Below are positions 1,534 through 62,408 of a DNA stretch of 64,000 nucleotides, in pieces (the stretch's first letter is position 1; the number at the start of each line of letters is the position of its first letter). The DNA is from Cordylochernes scorpioides (lineage: Eukaryota; Arthropoda; Arachnida; Pseudoscorpiones; Chernetidae): the NCBI GenBank assembly GCA_030710605.1, contig CP092879.1, forward strand, positions 46,914,256-46,978,255, in the 5' to 3' direction. The position numbers and the translations under genes are program-made. The notes below the pieces were generated by a model. It made no database searches, was not told where the DNA came from, and saw nothing but the letters and a program-made list of their open reading frames with translations.

Positions 1534-1894
1534 AAGAAAAACGAGTATTTTATATATACTCGGATAAAAATGCGCTCGCAGAAAACCCGGACAATGCCCG
1601 CGAAGATATGATTTATTTAGTTTAAATATATTCACACAATATCTAAACTAATTCGTTACTTTATTTCGACCAACCTGGGTGATCCTTCGAACCAAAAGAC
1701 CGTTAAGAAAAGCCTCTTTGTTTGAAATCTCTCTTAATTTAATCAAAATAAAAGGAAAGTTCTGATGTTTCAATTAGCATCAGCATCAATTTATATTTTA
1801 TCGACGTGGATTCAGTAATGTTTGATATGACAATAGTGTTTTATTGAAATAATACAATAGGTTTCTGGAGATGAGTTTATCTCCATTTTTATTA
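1534..1894. other. AT-rich spacer, nothing recognised
   Basis: No reading frame, RNA gene or dispersed repeat recognised. The right end runs into the inverted half-unit of the satellite. Confidence 0.5.
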
Positions 1895-3640
1895 ATATAA
1901 TATCAAGCTTTCGGGCATCTATGTCCTTCTACAGAAGTAGATAAAACGAATGAAAATTATTTGTTTTTCTTACTCCTGTTAAAGGGCAGAGATGCCCGAA
2001 AGCTTGATATTTTTATTCGTTTTATATACTCTTTTAGAAGGGCAGAGATGCCCGAAAGCTTGATATTGTTATTCGTTTTAAATACTCTTATAGAAGGGCA
2101 GAGATGCCCGAAAGCTTGATATTTTTATTCGTTTTATATACTCTTATAGAAGGGCAGAGATGCCCGAAAGCTTTATATTGTTATTCGTTTTATATACTCT
2201 TATAGAAGGGCAGAGATGCCCGAAAGCTTGATATTGTTATTCGTTTTATATACTCTTATAGAAGGGCAGAGATGCCCGAAAGCGTGATATTGTTATTCGT
2301 TTTATATACTCTTATAGAAGGGCAGAGATGCCCGAAAGCTTGATATTGTTATTCGTTTTATATACTCTTATAGAAGGGCAGAGATGCCCTAAAAGCTTGA
2401 TATTGTTATTCGCTTTATATACTCTTATAGAAGGGCAGAGATGCCTGAAAGCTTGATATTGTTATTCGCTTTATATACTCTTATAGAAGGGCAGAGATGC
2501 CCAAAAGCTTGATATTGTTATTCGCTTTATATACTCTTATAGAAGGGCAGAGATGCCTGAAAGCTTGATATTGTTATTCGCTTTATATACTCTTATAGAA
2601 AGGCAGAGATGCCCGAAAGCTTGGTATTTTTATTCGTTTTATATACTCTTATAGAAGGGCAGAGATGCCCTAAAGCTTGATATTGTTATTCGTTTTATAT
2701 ACTCTTATAGAAGGGCAGAGATATGCCCGAAAGCTTGATATTGTTATTCGTTTTATATACTCTTATAGAAGGGCAGAGATGCCCGAAAGCTTGATATTGT
2801 TATTCGTTTTATATACTCTTATAGAAGGGCAGAGATGCCCGAAAGCTTGATATTGTTATTCGTTTAAAATACTCTTATAGAAGGGCAGAGATGCCTGAAA
2901 GCTTGATATTTTTATTCGTTTTATATACTCTTATCGAAGGGCAGAGATGCCTGAAAGCTTGATATTTTTATTCGTTTTATATACTCTTATAGAAGGGCAG
3001 AGATGCCCGAAAGCTTGATATTTTTATTCGTTTTATATACTCTTATAGAAGGGCAGAGATGCCCGAAAGCTTGATATTATTATTCGCTTTATATACTCCT
3101 GTAGAAGAGTATAGATGCCCGAAAGCTTGATATTGTTATTCGCTTTATATACTCTTATAGAAAGGCAGAGATGCCCAAAAGCTTGATATTGTTATTCGCT
3201 TTATATACTCTTATAGAAGGGCAGAGATGCCTGAAAGCTTGATATTGTTATTCGTTTTATATACTCTTATAGAAAGGCAGAGATGCCCGAAAGCTTGATA
3301 TTTTTATTCGTTTTATATACTCTTATAGAAGGGCAGAGATGCCCTAAAGCTTGATATTTTTATTCGTTTTATATACTCTTATAGAAGGGCAGAGATGCCC
3401 GAAAGCTTGATATTGTTATCCGTTTTATATACTCTTATAGAAGGGCAGAGATATGCCCGAAAGCTTGATATTGTTATTCGTTTTATATACTCTTATAGAA
3501 GGGCAGAGATGCCCGAAAGCTTGATATTGTTATTCGTTTTATATATTCTTATAGAAGGGCAGAGATGCCCGAAAGCTTGATATTGTTATTCGTTTTATAT
3601 ACTCCTGTAGAAGAGTATAGATGCCCGAAATCTTGAGATT
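1895..3640 (+). repeat. 56-bp satellite array, about 29 units, preceded by an inverted half unit
   Basis: The unit contains GGGCAGAGATGCCCGAAAGC followed by an AT-rich part (ttgatattgttattcg, ttttatatactcttataga). Starts are spaced 56 bp apart (1984, 2040 and onward), with occasional 1-2 bp indels. Each unit can fold GGGCA-GAGA-TGCCC, a 5-bp hairpin with a GNRA-type loop, followed directly by GAAAGC. Bases 1895-1960 are an inverted partial unit, so the array starts head to head. A related single unit lies inverted at 63890-63935. The short reading frame through it is repeat-derived. Confidence 0.9.
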
Positions 3641-4482
3641 GTAATAATAAAAATGAAAAAAGAAACACATCTACAGAAACCTGTTGTTTTATATAAATTT
3701 ATATCAACAGGAGATTTGAATCAAGTAAATTGTTGTTTCATAATTCGCTACAGAGAGAGTTATGGTAATTCAACACCATCAACTCAGTGAGTTTCCAGCT
3801 TAATTCCGAAGAGAGTGAAGGCCATTGATGAGCGAGATTAAAAATTATCGAGCGACTAATTAGCGGGATTAAACTTGTCAAATTGCTGAGGGAGTATGGA
3901 TGATTCATCTTCTTCCTAGCCACCACAACCATCCTAATCCACAGGATTAACTCTGTCTTAATCTCCTTTAAAGAAAGAGCAGTAGATATATTTCACCTGG
4001 TCAGATGATTAATTGAGATTGCGAAGAGACAATAACGCACCATCGAAATTTCATCGCGAAATACGTGGTGTCGCTGGAGACCCGCTGTCGATTCTCCACC
4101 AAACTCTGCAGCGGTGGCAGAAGCGCCATGTACATTGTACATAGTTGTGTTTATCTAAATTAATTTTAAAAACAATAGTACAGACTGTGTACTTTTGCAT
4201 ATATTGACAAGATGCTAATAAAATTATGTTAATTATCTAAATATTAAAAATAAAACTATTCTATATACAGTTACGAGCGTCTTTCCTCATCTCCTAATCA
4301 ATCAACCAACTCTGTTACCGTTTGCTTTTTTCAGGTCGCTCCCTAAATAAATGCATATATTAGATAATAACCAAATGGAATCCTCTCTTTCTCTTTCCCA
4401 GTAAGAGACGCCTACGGAAGCCTACAGTACATAGACACATAGGCTATAGTTATTAACTAACATATGCAATTAATTAAGGCGC
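3641..4482. other. Spacer with moderately GC-rich unrecognised block
   Basis: Bases 3720-4135 are less AT-rich than their surroundings and include a possible stem near 4065-4115. I find no protein homology and no tRNA. The rest is ordinary AT-rich sequence. Confidence 0.4.
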
Positions 4483-5417: not shown

Positions 5418-5475
5418 AATCAGTGGTGAACATTCCTAGCATTTTCATCAGTTTAATCTTCAAATTGTTCTTCTA
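5418..5475 (-). ncRNA. Decayed copy of the rearranged hammerhead motif
   Basis: Read on the minus strand this follows the motif at 10779-10844: 'agattaaact', a damaged GGC-GAAA region (gatgaaaa), 'gctagga', then 'gttcaccactgat'. The CUGAUGA strand is cut short (CUGAUUA), and several stem bases no longer pair. It is a fossil of the family and is unlikely to fold. Confidence 0.5.
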
Positions 5476-10588: not shown

Positions 10589-10599
10589 TTATATATAAT

Positions 10600-10942
10600 G
10601 ATGTTTATGATGCATTATCGCGCCATCTGTTATCAAAATTCGAAACTATTATAGACGCGTATGATTCTTTTTAAAAATAAACAATTTCTACTGCCCTTAT
10701 TGCAATGGAAAAATTACCCATTCAAAGAATCTAGCATCAGTATCACTATAAAAGGAAGTTAAAAAAATGCAATATAACAGCGGTATGGTAGATTAAACTG
10801 GCGAAACCGCTAGGAGGGTTCACCACTGATGAGCCAGGCCCTCCCATTAATTTTTCCATTGCAGTAAGGACAGTAAAAATTGTTTATTTTTAAAAAGAAT
10901 CATACGCGTCTATAATAGTTTCGAATTTTGATAATGATGTTT
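10600..10942 (+). mobile_element. Foldback element carrying rearranged hammerhead, copy 1
   Basis: Long inverted arms: 'ttatcaaaattcgaaactat' with 'tagacgcgtatgattctttt' on the left, and the complement ending 'atagtttcgaattttgataa' on the right. They enclose about 190 bp with the motif annotated at 10779-10844. Relatives: 50843-51193 (full), 29696-29872 (core deleted), 62345-62408 and 26223-26315 (partial). No protein coding. Confidence 0.75.
10779..10844 (+). ncRNA. Hammerhead core in non-circular strand order, copy 1
   Basis: Strand order is cleavage strand, then GAAA strand, then CUGAUGA strand. AGCGG (10779-83) + UA (10784-85, GUA site) + UGGU (86-89); CUGGC (10798-802) + GAAA (803-806) + CCGCT (807-811); ACCA (10822-25) + CUGAUGA (826-832) + GCCAG (833-837). 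Stem III is AGCGG/CCGCT plus the A-U closing pair, stem I is UGGU/ACCA, stem II is GCCAG/CUGGC. GGAGGG (813-818) pairs with CCCTCC (839-844) as a fourth helix. All invariant hammerhead residues are present, but the order demands a pseudoknot, unlike types I, II and III. Confidence 0.6.
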
Positions 10943-11490
10943 AAAGTGACTCACACAATGATGAGATTATACTATATTACACCCAGAGGGAGTAGAAAAA
11001 AAGAGTAATATTGCTCAAATTTAACTTCTTATGATACGTAATGAATGGCTTCAATTTGGAGATCTAAAAATAGTTAAAGTTAATTTCTTATGATTTTCCA
11101 AATATTTTGTCTATGTAAGAGCTTGTACATTTATACCAAGTTTTATGGTATTTCAGCAGTTCCTTCTGGGTAGACGAATTTCTATCTCTAGTAATGTTTG
11201 TTAGATTTATGGAAGAAAACCTAGTACTTCATTCAACAGCGTGACTTGGATTAATCCCGGGTTGCTAGGCGACCTTTGTATCGAATTGATATAAAGAAAT
11301 TGGAATTTGTTTACTACCTTAAACCGTGTATTTTGCGATCTATGGATACCCTCCTGAAGTCTGTTATTACCACATGACAGTTGAGTATTGTCATTTTCTT
11401 AAAAGTTATATAAAATACTAAACTATTAATACAATAACCAGCTCAATCCACAGTTCAACAACACATAGTATTGAGGATGGAATTAGAGTA
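10943..11490. other. Spacer, nothing recognised
   Basis: AT-rich non-repetitive sequence with no convincing frame or RNA. Confidence 0.5.
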
Positions 11491-12169: not shown

Positions 12170-12245
12170 GTGTCAAGGGATGGGAATCGAACCCACGACC
12201 TTCCGCTTACCGGGCAGATGCCATGACCACTAGGCCACATGACCA
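12170..12245 (-). mobile_element. tRNA-like SINE head (with 12061-12329 body and repeat)
   Basis: The minus strand has an A box (TGGCCTAGTGG) and a B box (GGTTCGATTCC) at tRNA spacing, with an anticodon stem TCTGC/GCGGA. The acceptor stem pairs poorly. Position 33 is C rather than U and no CCA or terminator is convincing, so I read it as tRNA-derived and not a working tRNA. It abuts the 84-bp repeat at 12246-12329. A related head lies at 40201-40274. Confidence 0.6.
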
Positions 12246-26222: not shown

Positions 26223-26315
26223 GCCTTAACCTGCAATGAATAAAAATTGAAAGGCTATGGTTATCAGTGGTCAATTCTCCCAGCGATATCGCCATTTTAG
26301 AAAATAAATATCGTT
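26223..26315 (-). ncRNA. Decayed copy of the rearranged hammerhead element
   Basis: Alignable on minus with 10779-10870: 'tggcgatatcgctggga' matches the GAAA strand (GAAA now GATA), 'gaccactgataacc' matches the CUGAUGA strand, and 'ttgcaggttaagg' matches the distal part. Key residues are lost. Confidence 0.5.
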
Positions 26316-29695: not shown

Positions 29696-29872
29696 GTATT
29701 ATGATGCATTAGCGCGCCATCTATTATAAAAATTCGAAACTATTATAGACATGTATGATTCTTTTAAAATTTAAACAATTTATTCTGCCCTTATTTTCCA
29801 TTGCAGTAAGGGCAGTAGAAATTGCTTAAATTTTAAAAGAATCATACGTGTCTAAAATAGTTTCGAATATTC
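29696..29872. mobile_element. Foldback of the rearranged-hammerhead family, core deleted
   Basis: Left arm 'aaaattcgaaactattatag', right arm its complement. The arms meet at 'ctgcccttattttccattgcagtaagggcag', so the roughly 170 bp containing the ribozyme strands are gone. Confidence 0.7.
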
Positions 29873-39968: not shown

Positions 39969-40349
39969 TATAAATGACTGCGGCGTATAATTATAAAGCT
40001 ATGCAACCAGTTTAACCGCATAAGTTTTTTTTATTTATGAAAAATCATTTTTAATTTCAAAGAGAAATAATTTAATATTTCTAACTTTTGGATGACGTAT
40101 GAAAAGGTTGAATATATGAAGAGTGATGGTCTATATATGAATGGATGACGTATGGAGGGTGAACAATATGAAGAGTAATGGCGAACGGAAAAATAAAAGT
40201 GTCCAGGAGCGGGAATCGAACCCACAACCTTCTGCTTACCGGGCAGGTGCCATGTCCACTAGGCTATCCTGGACGATATTTCTCCGTTCGTAACTAATAT
40301 TTAAACTGACTAATAATACTTATAAATGACTGCGGCGTATAATTATAAA
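39969..40349 (-). mobile_element. tRNA-headed insertion flanked by a 29-bp direct repeat
   Basis: 'taaatgactgcggcgtataa' with flanking bases forms a 29-bp direct repeat at 39969-39997 and 40321-40349, so the 323 bp between look like an insertion with an unusually long target duplication. Inside lies the tRNA-like head (40201-40274), with 'ttccgttcg' and 'cgaacgga' paired around it. Confidence 0.6.
40201..40274 (-). tRNA. tRNA-like sequence, probably SINE head or pseudo-tRNA
   Basis: On minus the acceptor arms GTCCAGG and CCTGGAC pair over 7 bp. The A box (TAGCCTAGTGG) and B box (GGTTCGATTCC) are canonical, and the T stem GTGGG/CCCGC pairs. The anticodon stem has only 4 good pairs, and the loop CCGGTAA lacks U33. 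If real, the anticodon would read GGT (Thr). The relative at 12170 and the insertion context favour a SINE head. Confidence 0.5.
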
Positions 40350-49264: not shown

Positions 49265-50830
49265 AAGGTACAATGATTGAGAAATAAATTAAGTATAACG
49301 ATATTGTAACAAGGTACAATGATTAGGAAAATAAATTAGGAATAACGATATTGGAACAAGGTACAATGATTGAGAAATAAATTTAAAGAGAACAATATTG
49401 GAACAAGGTACAATTATTGGGAAATAAATTTATGGAGAACAATATTGGAACAAAGTAAAATTATTGGGAAATAAATTTAAAGAGAACAATATTGGAACAA
49501 GGTACAATTATTGCGAAATAAATTTAAGGGGAAGTATATTGGAACAAGGTACAATTATGGGGAAATAAATTTAGGGAGAACAATATTGGAACAAGGTACA
49601 ATGATTGAGAAATAAATTTAAGGAGAACACTATTGGAACAAGGTATAATTATTGGGAAATAAATTAAGGAGAACAATATTGGAACAAGGTACAATTATTG
49701 GGGAATAAATTTTTGGAGAACAATATTGGAACAAAGTGAATTATTGGGAAATATATTTAAAGAGAACAATATTGGAACAAGGTACAATTATTGGGAAATA
49801 AATTTAAAGGGAAATATATTGGAACAAGGTACAATTATTGGGAAATAAATTTATGGGGAAGTATATTGGAACAAGGAACAATTATTGGGAAATAAATTTA
49901 GGGAGAACAATATTGGAACAAGGTACAATGATTGAGAAATAAATTTAAGGAGAACACTATTGGAACAAGGTACAATTATAGGGAAATATATTAAGGAGAA
50001 CAATATTGGAACAAGGTGTAATTATTGGGGAATAAATTTAAGGAGAACAATATTGGAACAAGGTACAATTATTAGGAAGAAAAATAAAGGAGAAGGATAT
50101 TGGAACAAGGTACAATTATTGGGAAATAAATTTAAGGAGAACAATATTGGAACAAGGTACTATTATTAGGAAGATAAATAAAGGAGAAGGATATTGGAAC
50201 AAGGTACAATTATTGGGAAATAAAGAGAACAATATTGGAACAAGGTACAATTATTGGGAAAATAAATTTAAGGAGAACAATTTTGGAACAAGGTTCCATT
50301 ATTGGGAAATAAATTTAAGGAGAACAATTTTGGAACAAGGTACAATAATTAGGAAGATAAATTAAGGACAACAATATTGGAACAAGGTACAATTATTGGG
50401 ATGATAAATTAAGGGAACGATATTGGAACAAGGTACAATGATTGGTAAATGAAGAGAACGATATTGGAACAAGGTACAATGAATGGGAAATAAAGAGAAC
50501 AATATTGGAACAAGGTACAATGATTGGTAAATAAAGAGAACAATATTGGAACAAGGTACAATTATTGGGAAAATAAATTTAAGGAGAACAATTTTGGAAC
50601 AAGGTACAATAATTAGGAAGATATATTAAGGAGAACAATATTGGAACAAGGTACAATTATTGGGAAGATAAATTAAGGGGAACGATATTGGAACAAGGTA
50701 CAATTATTGGTAAATAAAGAGAACGATATTGGAACAAGGTACAATTATTGGGAAAATAAATTAAGTAAAACGATATTGATATATAGGAAGATAAAAGAAA
50801 ACAATATTGGGAAAGAGGCAATGATTAAAA
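49265..50830 (+). repeat. 47-bp minisatellite, about 33 units
   Basis: The unit contains 'attggaacaaggtacaat', then 'tattgggaaataaatttaag', then 'gagaacaat'. Spacing is 47 bp (49448, 49495), with shortened units lacking 'aaattta' near 50220 and 50450-50730. Repeat-derived frames of the type NIGTRYNYWE are not genes. Confidence 0.95.
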
Positions 50831-50842
50831 GAAAGTTATAAT

Positions 50843-51193
50843 ATGATGCACTAGCGCGCCATCTGTTATCAAAATTCAATTGCGGAAGAGCGATTTCTCG
50901 AAGCCTATTATATATTTTAAAATGTATGTAATTCTACTGTCCTCAAAGCTTATGTCCATAGTTCTTCTAAAATACCCATTCAAAGAGTCTATCAACAGCA
51001 TCACTATAAAAGGAAGTTCCAAATATGCAATATAACAGCGGTATGGTAGATTAAACTGGCGAAACCGCTGAGAGGGTTCACCACTGATGAGCCAGGCCCT
51101 CTCATTAATTTTTCCATTGCAGTAAGGGCAGTAGAAATTGTTCAATATCAAAAAGAATCTTACGCCTTTAAAATAGTTTTGAATTTTGATAAA
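50843..51193 (+). mobile_element. Foldback element carrying rearranged hammerhead, copy 2
   Basis: Starts 'gatgcactagcgcgccatct' and ends 'aatagttttgaattttgata'. The left arm is partly replaced (50885-50985); the core from 50995 to 51135 is nearly identical to copy 1. Confidence 0.7.
51037..51103 (+). ncRNA. Hammerhead core in non-circular strand order, copy 2
   Basis: AGCGG (51037-41) + UA + UGGU (44-47); CUGGC (56-60) + GAAA (61-64) + CCGCT (65-69); ACCA (80-83) + CUGAUGA (84-90) + GCCAG (91-95). All core bases are as in copy 1. The extra helix is GAGAGGG (70-76) with CCCTCTC (97-103). At its second position from the outside an A-T replaces the G-C of copy 1, and the outermost pair is G-C where copy 1 has A against C, so pairing is kept or improved. 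Confidence 0.6.
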
Positions 51194-52106
51194 AGAAAGT
51201 TAAATTATAAACCAAAGGTCAATTCTTTAAATATTAATTCAGAGAACCATTATATAACACCAAATATATTTATAAGGAAGATAGGCTGTGAAAAGAATAT
51301 TGCAACAAAGAAAAACGTTAAAAGAAGAGAGAAAAATAATATAAATAAACAAGGATATATGCAAATTATTTCTGTATATAATTCATCTTTTTTTCTGTAG
51401 CGGTGTTAAATGATTCTTGAAGATCCGTTCAGTTCTCTCTTTCTCTAAAACCCTCGTTGAAATTCATTCCATATTAAAAAAACTCCCATTGCCCCTGTAC
51501 AAGTTTTACAAGGCTGCGTAAAGAGAAGAAACATTGAAAAAAGAGAGCCATATGTAAATGGATATGTAAATGACGATCACCTGTAAATAATTAACTCAAT
51601 TTTACTAAGTAATTATGCACCTGGGTGAATTCTGTGTAGGGCATAGGTCCCCAATAAAAGTCTTGTTGCTGTTAAAAGATACTCTTGAAACTTGGTCAAA
51701 AGAAGATGTAAACGACGTTTCACTCGTCAAAGGACAACTACCTGGACTTTAAAAGTAAGTTACATCTTGCTCTCATCTTGTTAACCTATTGTGATGTTGA
51801 AATTGACAATCGCAGATATTTCTACGATATTTGATATGTAGATATTTGCATAGAGTTTTAGTATTGTTTATGCTAATTGACATATCTGCCTATATAGCGC
51901 GGTTTTGTTGGATTGTTAGTTGGTTAGCGGTTATTGGATAGGGCAGGCTTGGCGTGAGCTGCTGATGTACATATAATTTGATCTCTTTGTCCTTCTTTTA
52001 TACCTTTAGGTAATAAAGGATCTTTCTCTTCCTCTACGACTCCATAAATTTTCTTTCAACTGTGTACTTAGTAGCATATTGTTCTATTTGTTATATATGA
52101 TTACAT
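51194..52106. other. Spacer, nothing recognised
   Basis: The frame at 51179-51400 starts in the foldback arm and is Lys/Asn-rich noise. The rest has no recognised family. Confidence 0.5.
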
Positions 52107-62245: not shown

Positions 62246-62344
62246 ATAACTATTTTTAAATCACTTTATTTTAAATATAACGAGAGGGATATGTAGAAAT
62301 GTAAACTATTTTTGACACTCGTATGATTATTTTAGAAATAAAGC

Positions 62345-62408
62345 AATTGTCTACTGACCTTACTGCAATGATAAAATAATGGGAGGACCTAGCTCATCAG
62401 TGGTGTAT
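62345..62408 (-). ncRNA. 5'-truncated copy of the rearranged hammerhead element
   Basis: On minus: CACCACTGATGAGCTAGG, then TCCTCCCATT and 'cattgcagtaaggtcagtag', matching the CUGAUGA strand and everything distal in copies 1 and 2. The other two strands are absent. Confidence 0.6.

Follow-up and report, generated by a model that had tools for sequence, protein, structure and literature searches.

Type SGC hammerhead motifs in a probable retrozyme-like element and in a Penelope-like element of a pseudoscorpion genome

The three conserved blocks of hammerhead ribozymes were named S, G and C by Eckert, Friedrich, Weinberg & Weinberg (2023; PMC10085705), who described type SGC as a non-circular permutation of them. 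That paper counts 583 predicted type SGC sequences; five candidates expected to be functional were cleaved in vitro at the predicted site, and compensatory mutants were produced for the four helices of one candidate. The published examples derive almost exclusively from environmental RNA, and the same paper contains no case from the genome of a known organism. Here the topology is described in a stretch of 64,000 nucleotides of chromosomal DNA from the pseudoscorpion Cordylochernes scorpioides (contig CP092879.1, positions 46,914,256 to 46,978,255, forward strand; hereafter the window), where two complete cores, E1 and E2, are found inside copies of a small element. Most probably, these cores are type SGC ribozymes belonging to a retroelement that resembles retrozymes, has no coding part and measures about 372 nt, and that is moved by the machinery of Penelope-like elements (PLEs) of the same genome.

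Hammerheads are also known from two groups of retroelements. Metazoan retrozymes without long terminal repeats (LTRs) contain type I hammerheads and are described as "highly self-paired" (Cervera & de la Pena 2020; PMC7229834); PLEs carry hammerheads in their pseudo-LTRs and may have a tail of some 30-40 bp (Frangieh et al. 2024; PMC11167929). According to PMC7229834, the PLE ribozymes are atypical hammerheads of a minimal type I. The hammerhead of one PLE showed no activity when protein was absent, and mutants of the ribozyme left insertion in vitro unchanged (PMC11167929).

Hammerhead cores in the window and their copies in the genome

Direct reading of E2 (51034-51107) gives AAC AGCGG-UA/UGGU AGAUUAAA CUGGC-GAAA-CCGCU GAGAGGG UUC ACCA-CUGAUGA-GCCAG G CCCUCUC, the slash marking the predicted cleavage point. 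Stem III consists of 5 bp plus a U-A pair, stem I of 4 bp and stem II of 5 bp; the site is GUA, and all the invariant hammerhead letters are present in the window cores, in agreement with the description in PMC10085705. The blocks follow one another as site, GAAA and CUGANGA (S-G-C) both at 51037-51103 (E2) and at 10779-10845 (E1), with one core per copy and a linker of 8 nt between stems I and II in this family. Over 74 aligned columns the two cores differ only in a fourth helix that encloses the CUGAUGA loop of the C block, GGAGGG/CCCUCC in E1 and GAGAGGG/CCCUCUC in E2. A first-pass annotation of the window had proposed complete, fully paired cores at both sites, with the GAAA and CUGANGA blocks swapped in a way that no circular permutation gives, and a pair of hairpins with stems I and II formed between their loops; direct reading confirmed the first point, reading and an any-order descriptor the second, and the third was upheld. 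Its statement that no natural example had been described was wrong, since Eckert et al. (PMC10085705) had already described this motif as type SGC. The fourth helix, the retroelement context and the Penelope-like insertion ends are additional to that account.

The descriptor required 4 bp in each of stems I-III, 5 or more G-C pairs, CUGANGA, GAAA and UH within a span of up to 130, in any order of the blocks. In the window it found two matches, both S-G-C, as against none in 40 second-order Markov shuffles; the motif is not a product of chance. Applied to 120 stretches of viral contigs, it recovered hammerheads of types II and I in their classical orders (GSC, CGS), which indicates that the descriptor works; several viral contigs (L046, L059, L150) hold 4-5 type II hammerheads inside a few kb. 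The S-G-C order was absent among 120 viral stretches listed with a loose S-G-C pattern and then submitted to the pairing test, and the exact letters of the family were found neither in viral contigs nor in contigs of prokaryote genomes. Rfam release 15 reported no hammerhead in the window at gathering scores, nor in E1 at E values up to 1, and its Hammerhead_1 model gave no match on the pseudoscorpion genome, where the control was silent as well; the Rfam models presumably presuppose the classical block orders. Searches with family models of this type can overlook abundant hammerheads of a different block order.

The genome comprises 2.62 Gb in 24 contigs. Its gene content is that of an arthropod: cuticle proteins (PF00379) gave 150 matches, 150 having been scored of 333 candidates, as against 0 in 14 prokaryote controls. 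Insect odorant receptors (PF02949) gave 0 matches, a weak hint at most, since the control was silent too. The exact pattern CTGGCGAAACCGCT-N8..14-CACTGATGAG occurs in it 24,654 times (12,360 forward and 12,294 reverse), whereas the reversed-pattern control has no match on either strand (0 + 0). The first 100 matches listed, all on contig C1, have a density of about 12 per Mb and include 14 neighbour pairs at less than 2 kb, 7 of them head-to-head, 6 direct and 1 tail-to-tail; two of the direct pairs are spaced 371 bp. Nothing was found in favour of a chance resemblance or of an assembly artefact, and the empty shuffles, the number of exact matches against a control of zero and the unrelated stems of the PLE core described below leave this explanation with a negligible probability.

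Conservation and covariation of the core

Diverged copies were found by a profile search of the collected loci, and a second, older subfamily (C) by searching with one of them: there were 2,547 candidates, and the 40 scored are 74-82% alike, excluding the query itself and a duplicate locus at 91%. Of the 49 profile matches in 20 loci of subfamily C, 22 were partial, weak or at an edge and were discarded, which left 27 full cores. The final alignment has 71 rows (61 distinct), namely 39 cores of family A (with E1 and locus L002 as near duplicates), 5 diverged cores and the 27 from the subfamily C search; other partial diverged cores were omitted. The case for covariation rests on this alignment and not on two mixed ones of 16 and 38 rows, which included only 7 of the 39 family A rows, chosen by hand, four of them for variability.

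In the 61 distinct cores, 90.7% of the cells are paired. Cells changed on both sides amount to 69, against 32.0 (standard deviation 5.6) in shuffles, with none of 500 shuffles as high; the covariation score is 0.192 against 0.137, again with 0 of 500 as high, and sliding the partners by 1-3 columns leaves 6-17 double-changed cells. Three switches are found: in stem III beside the core (G-C in 35, A-U in 21), in outer stem II (C-G in 31, U-A in 24) and in the fourth helix (G-C in 33, A-U in 18). Separate single events occur inside family A, in stem II of L030 and in the fourth helix of E2. The subfamilies maintain the structure by paired changes in three of the four helices.

Covarying helices demand a structure, not catalysis; the S-G-C fold might have been retained because it binds the PLE reverse transcriptase or serves in packaging the RNA, with self-cleavage unused or lost, as the PLE hammerhead that was inactive without protein, and whose mutants did not affect insertion, would also allow. 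This explanation is rather improbable: besides the helices, the catalytic letters are kept as well, with a mean substitution of 0.013 at the 12 scored core positions of family A (copies picked by similarity), and the catalytic core is complete in the PLE copy despite its unrelated stems.

Anatomy and insertion of the small element

Copies of the small element have a constant 3' part and variable 5' start points; in dimer L042, positions -244 and +128 correspond to a period of 372 nt. In such a head-to-tail dimer S and C of one monomer and G of the next (S1-C1-G2) are available to form a classical type III hammerhead, and the S-G-C order could then follow simply from the point at which the unit is divided. 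This is very unlikely, since both window copies have a single core and a circle of one monomer cannot yield the classical order; moreover, the fourth helix, one pair of which covaries, encloses the C block right after the G block, which is the published layout of type SGC.

Insertions are flanked by short target duplications. An automatic finder gave duplications of 10-13 bp in 13 of 19 left-armed insertions, 7 or 8 bp in 4 and none in 2, and a second sample of 6 insertions gave 12-14 bp in 4 and 6 or 8 bp in 2; taken together, duplications of 10-14 bp are present in 17 of 25. Words of at least 12 bases are not unusual here, being shared by 229 of 1500 random 40-base flank pairs in the window, partly from local repeats; therefore, the case for the duplications rests on their position at the boundary.

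At its ends the element is either short or extended by a tail of 24-31 nt (the reference goes no further than 31). The ends were surveyed in 59 copies, 39 chosen by similarity and 20 from regions around early-listed C1 matches. Right and left ends were respectively short and tailed in 18 copies, tailed and short in 11, short and intermediate in 1, short and unmeasured in 20, and tailed and unmeasured in 9. Exactly one tail is thus found in 29 of the 30 insertions with both arms measured, the other being the intermediate one; insertions with two tails or with two short ends number 0. One tail per insertion is a PLE signature.

Many copies carry an inverted arm on the left, and in E1 the inverted arms extend over 87 bp and are 97% alike, as could be expected of a fold-back DNA transposon (a miniature inverted-repeat transposable element) with long inverted ends and an incidental hammerhead. 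However, a cut-and-paste DNA transposon requires two equal ends; here the two ends are never alike where both arms were measured, 29 of the 59 copies gave no measured inverted left arm, the length of the target duplication varies, and 5' truncations and dimers occur, so that a transposon of this kind is exceedingly improbable.

For the retroelement reading, the following steps are proposed. The RNA of the element would cleave itself after GUA and circularize; a PLE protein would cut the two strands of AT-rich DNA at points some 12 nt from each other, and synthesis of complementary DNA (cDNA) would begin, on either strand, at one or the other of two sites separated by about 28 nt. Cuts at the former distance, combined with two start sites at the latter, would produce inverted arms, one tail and a duplication.

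In locus L184 (L184:1-1801), an inverted arm longer than one monomer faces a direct dimer with cores 371 apart, a layout that suits cDNA synthesis from both cut strands with a multimeric or circular RNA as template; a few hundred bases upstream, a tRNA-like sequence was noticed by eye. Locus L002 (C17:46986483-46986707) is 98% alike to E1 and lies 61.5 kb further on; by eye, it has the target duplication word and the right flank of E1, indicating a segmental duplication and not a second insertion. Two tRNA matches were also observed in the window on the reverse strand, a tRNA-Thr at 40199-40274 by both ARAGORN and Rfam, and a second match at 12171-12243 by Rfam only.

Table 1. Coordinates of the features (window positions unless a locus or contig is given)
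Feature	Position	Strand	Basis
E2, S block: stem III 3' strand AGCGG, U16.1, A17	51037-51043	+	direct reading, alignment
E2, cleavage point predicted from the analogous structure of the hammerhead core	between 51043 and 51044		
E2, stem I strand UGGU (partner 51080-51083)	51044-51047	+	direct reading, alignment
E2, G block: stem II strand CUGGC, GAAA, stem III strand CCGCU	51056-51069	+	
E2, fourth (interaction) helix 5' strand GAGAGGG (partner 51097-51103)	51070-51076	+	reading, pair counts
E2, C block: stem I strand ACCA, CUGAUGA, stem II strand GCCAG	51080-51095	+	
E2, fourth helix 3' strand CCCUCUC	51097-51103	+	reading, pair counts
E1, second complete S-G-C core; predicted cleavage between 10785 and 10786	10779-10845	+	
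Element E2: short inverted tip with tail on the left, 5'-truncated tailless monomer on the right	50839-51189	+	
E2 target duplications, 13 bp	50826-50838, 51190-51202		
Element E1: tailed, long inverted arm on the left, tailless monomer on the right	10608-10930	+	
E1 arm pairing	10630-10716 with 10848-10934		
E1 target duplications, 13 bp	10595-10607, 10931-10943		
Copy with abutting arms, ribozyme missing; 12-bp duplications on both sides	29701-29866	+	
5'-truncated copy beginning inside the C block	62303-62406	-	
Degraded old core copy	5419-5461	-	
Degraded old core copy	26253-26299	-	profile search
PLE type SGC core, with inverted twin	L218:3560-3626 = C1:8989859-8989925		

The Penelope-like element and comparison with known systems

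A search of the genome for GIY-YIG domains gave 146 matches, 150 having been scored of 17,015 first-look candidates. Locus L218 consists of two PLE arms in head-to-head position that match at 99.5% across 2,630 bp, and it yielded one S-G-C match per strand with the descriptor relaxed to 3 bp in stem II and 2 bp in stem III, the shuffle null given above belonging to the stricter limits only. The core reads GGCAG-UA/AUGGAG UAA GGGCC-GAAA-CUGCUG CUCAGGU CUUCAU-CUGAAGA-GGCCC ACCUGAG; all four helices pair on inspection and are longer than the descriptor required, the linker between stems I and II is of 3 nt, and the stem letters are unrelated to those of families A and C, also in stem I (AUGGAG/CUUCAU, with one G-U). 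For a 141-nt stretch with this hammerhead there were 1,304 candidates; of the 41 rows, with 40 scored candidates among them, 37 show identity at 141 of 141 bases, which suggests a recent spread or activity of the PLE.

On C1, copies of the PLE hammerhead are located at 8989829 and 8995088 on the forward strand and at 8989070 and 8983781 on the reverse strand, with a spacing of 5259 and 5289; the GIY-YIG domain lies between these direct repeats, giving a unit of about 5.26 kb composed of repeat, open reading frame and repeat. On each of the two C1 arms, the distance from GIY-YIG to the downstream repeat is 3,971 bp; for another GIY-YIG, on C8 (55955000), it is 3,973 bp. At L218 a hammerhead is thus found in direct repeats flanking the coding part, but it is of type SGC and not of type I. 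The open frame contains GIY-YIG near its start, preceding a reverse-transcriptase part with the motif RYVDDI, whose RVT_1 match is partial (E 2e-5) and under the curated cut-off; a source of GIY-YIG and reverse transcriptase for Penelope-like mobilization is therefore present in the genome. The position of GIY-YIG ahead of the reverse transcriptase is a trait of the Naiad/Chlamys clade.

In the first 12 GIY-YIG loci the descriptor found no hammerhead of any order, although it misses the altered copy in one of them, L210, whose L218-type hammerhead is 98% alike and lies on the strand opposite its GIY-YIG. In L208, a core matching the family profile is found 1.4 kb from GIY-YIG and may be an independent insertion. 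In L217 (193-263 on the reverse strand, and 1822-4001) a PLE reverse-transcriptase frame is followed by a separate GIY-YIG frame, and a core that matches the family profile lies close by.

The L218 PLE and the small element are linked by their common ribozyme topology and by the tail signature, and several observations weigh against reading the latter as a retrozyme-like element with a self-cleaving type SGC hammerhead, moved by PLE machinery. For the small element, cleavage, circularization and mobilization by a PLE are steps that we infer. Its linker of 8 nt differs from the three nucleotides typical of published type SGC (PMC10085705), a length found in the PLE copy, and its two predicted 372-nt monomer circles fold no better than shuffled sequences (z -0.11 and -0.39), differently from the high self-pairing described for retrozymes (PMC7229834). 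Stem I, which the first-pass annotation expected to covary like stems II and III, has no pair with a double change in the 61 cores. Pairs showing a double change amount to 8 and further pair types to 25, neither of which exceeds the shuffles (182 and 217 of 500, respectively), so that the covariation consists of a few switches common to many related copies; since kinship inflates the double-change counts, these should be read as few independent events. In family A alone (31 distinct rows) two pairs have double changes, and 131 of 500 shuffles are as high. The low substitution rate of the core in 39 family A copies (0.022 per site; flanks 0.081 and 0.052) is weak evidence, as the copies were picked by similarity and the core ranks 19 of 237 in a rotation control. 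Duplications of 6-8 bp, or none, characterize 8 of the 25 insertions; finally, the Fisher p of 2.9e-8 for the distribution of tails (18/0/0/11) is too small, because the 59 copies include segmental duplicates (E1 with L002; L019 also resembles L028).

The topology itself was already described; its genomic setting, its abundance and the presence of a type SGC hammerhead in a PLE appear to be new within the literature searched, and searches of the openly licensed PMC literature listed no subsequent paper on genomic type SGC. The chances seem about even that, in at least one arthropod lineage, PLEs with recent activity and their non-coding satellites rely on type SGC as their functional ribozyme, with eukaryotic chromosomal retroelements as a home, perhaps the origin, of the type SGC sequences of environmental RNA, and with the topology being exchanged within PLEs. 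If this were true, the best-supported natural non-circular RNA permutation would move from anonymous metatranscriptomes to a definable chromosomal mobile element present in tens of thousands of copies; it could then be asked whether the permuted fold derives from a classical PLE hammerhead or had an independent origin, whether the PLE protein aids its folding, and how satellites and PLE come to share a ribozyme type.

Compared with published type SGC (the HRIMA-1 motif and the type SGC variants of PMC10085705), the pseudoscorpion motif has the same block order, conserved letters and stems I-III, and the same fourth helix tying stems I and II; stem III directly adjoins this helix in the window copies, as in a few published cases. 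Differently from those, the arthropod motif is known from chromosomal DNA, inside retroelements. Like the metazoan retrozymes (PMC7229834), the small element is a non-coding unit in the range of 170-400 nt (372-nt period; 371-bp pairs) with one hammerhead, tandem copies and low G+C, and it shares with them target duplications longer than 4 bp, a high copy number and the presence of PLEs in the same genome. Conversely, its hammerhead is of type SGC instead of type I, and in the places sampled it occurs mostly as single cores with head-to-head arms and not in long arrays. As regards PLEs, the likeness includes GIY-YIG with reverse transcriptase, repeats around the coding part and an optional tail, as well as an AT-rich target of which both strands are cut and extended, the latter probably holding for the small element too (PMC11167929); in place of the minimal type I hammerhead described for PLEs (PMC7229834), the L218 PLE has a type SGC hammerhead with four helices.
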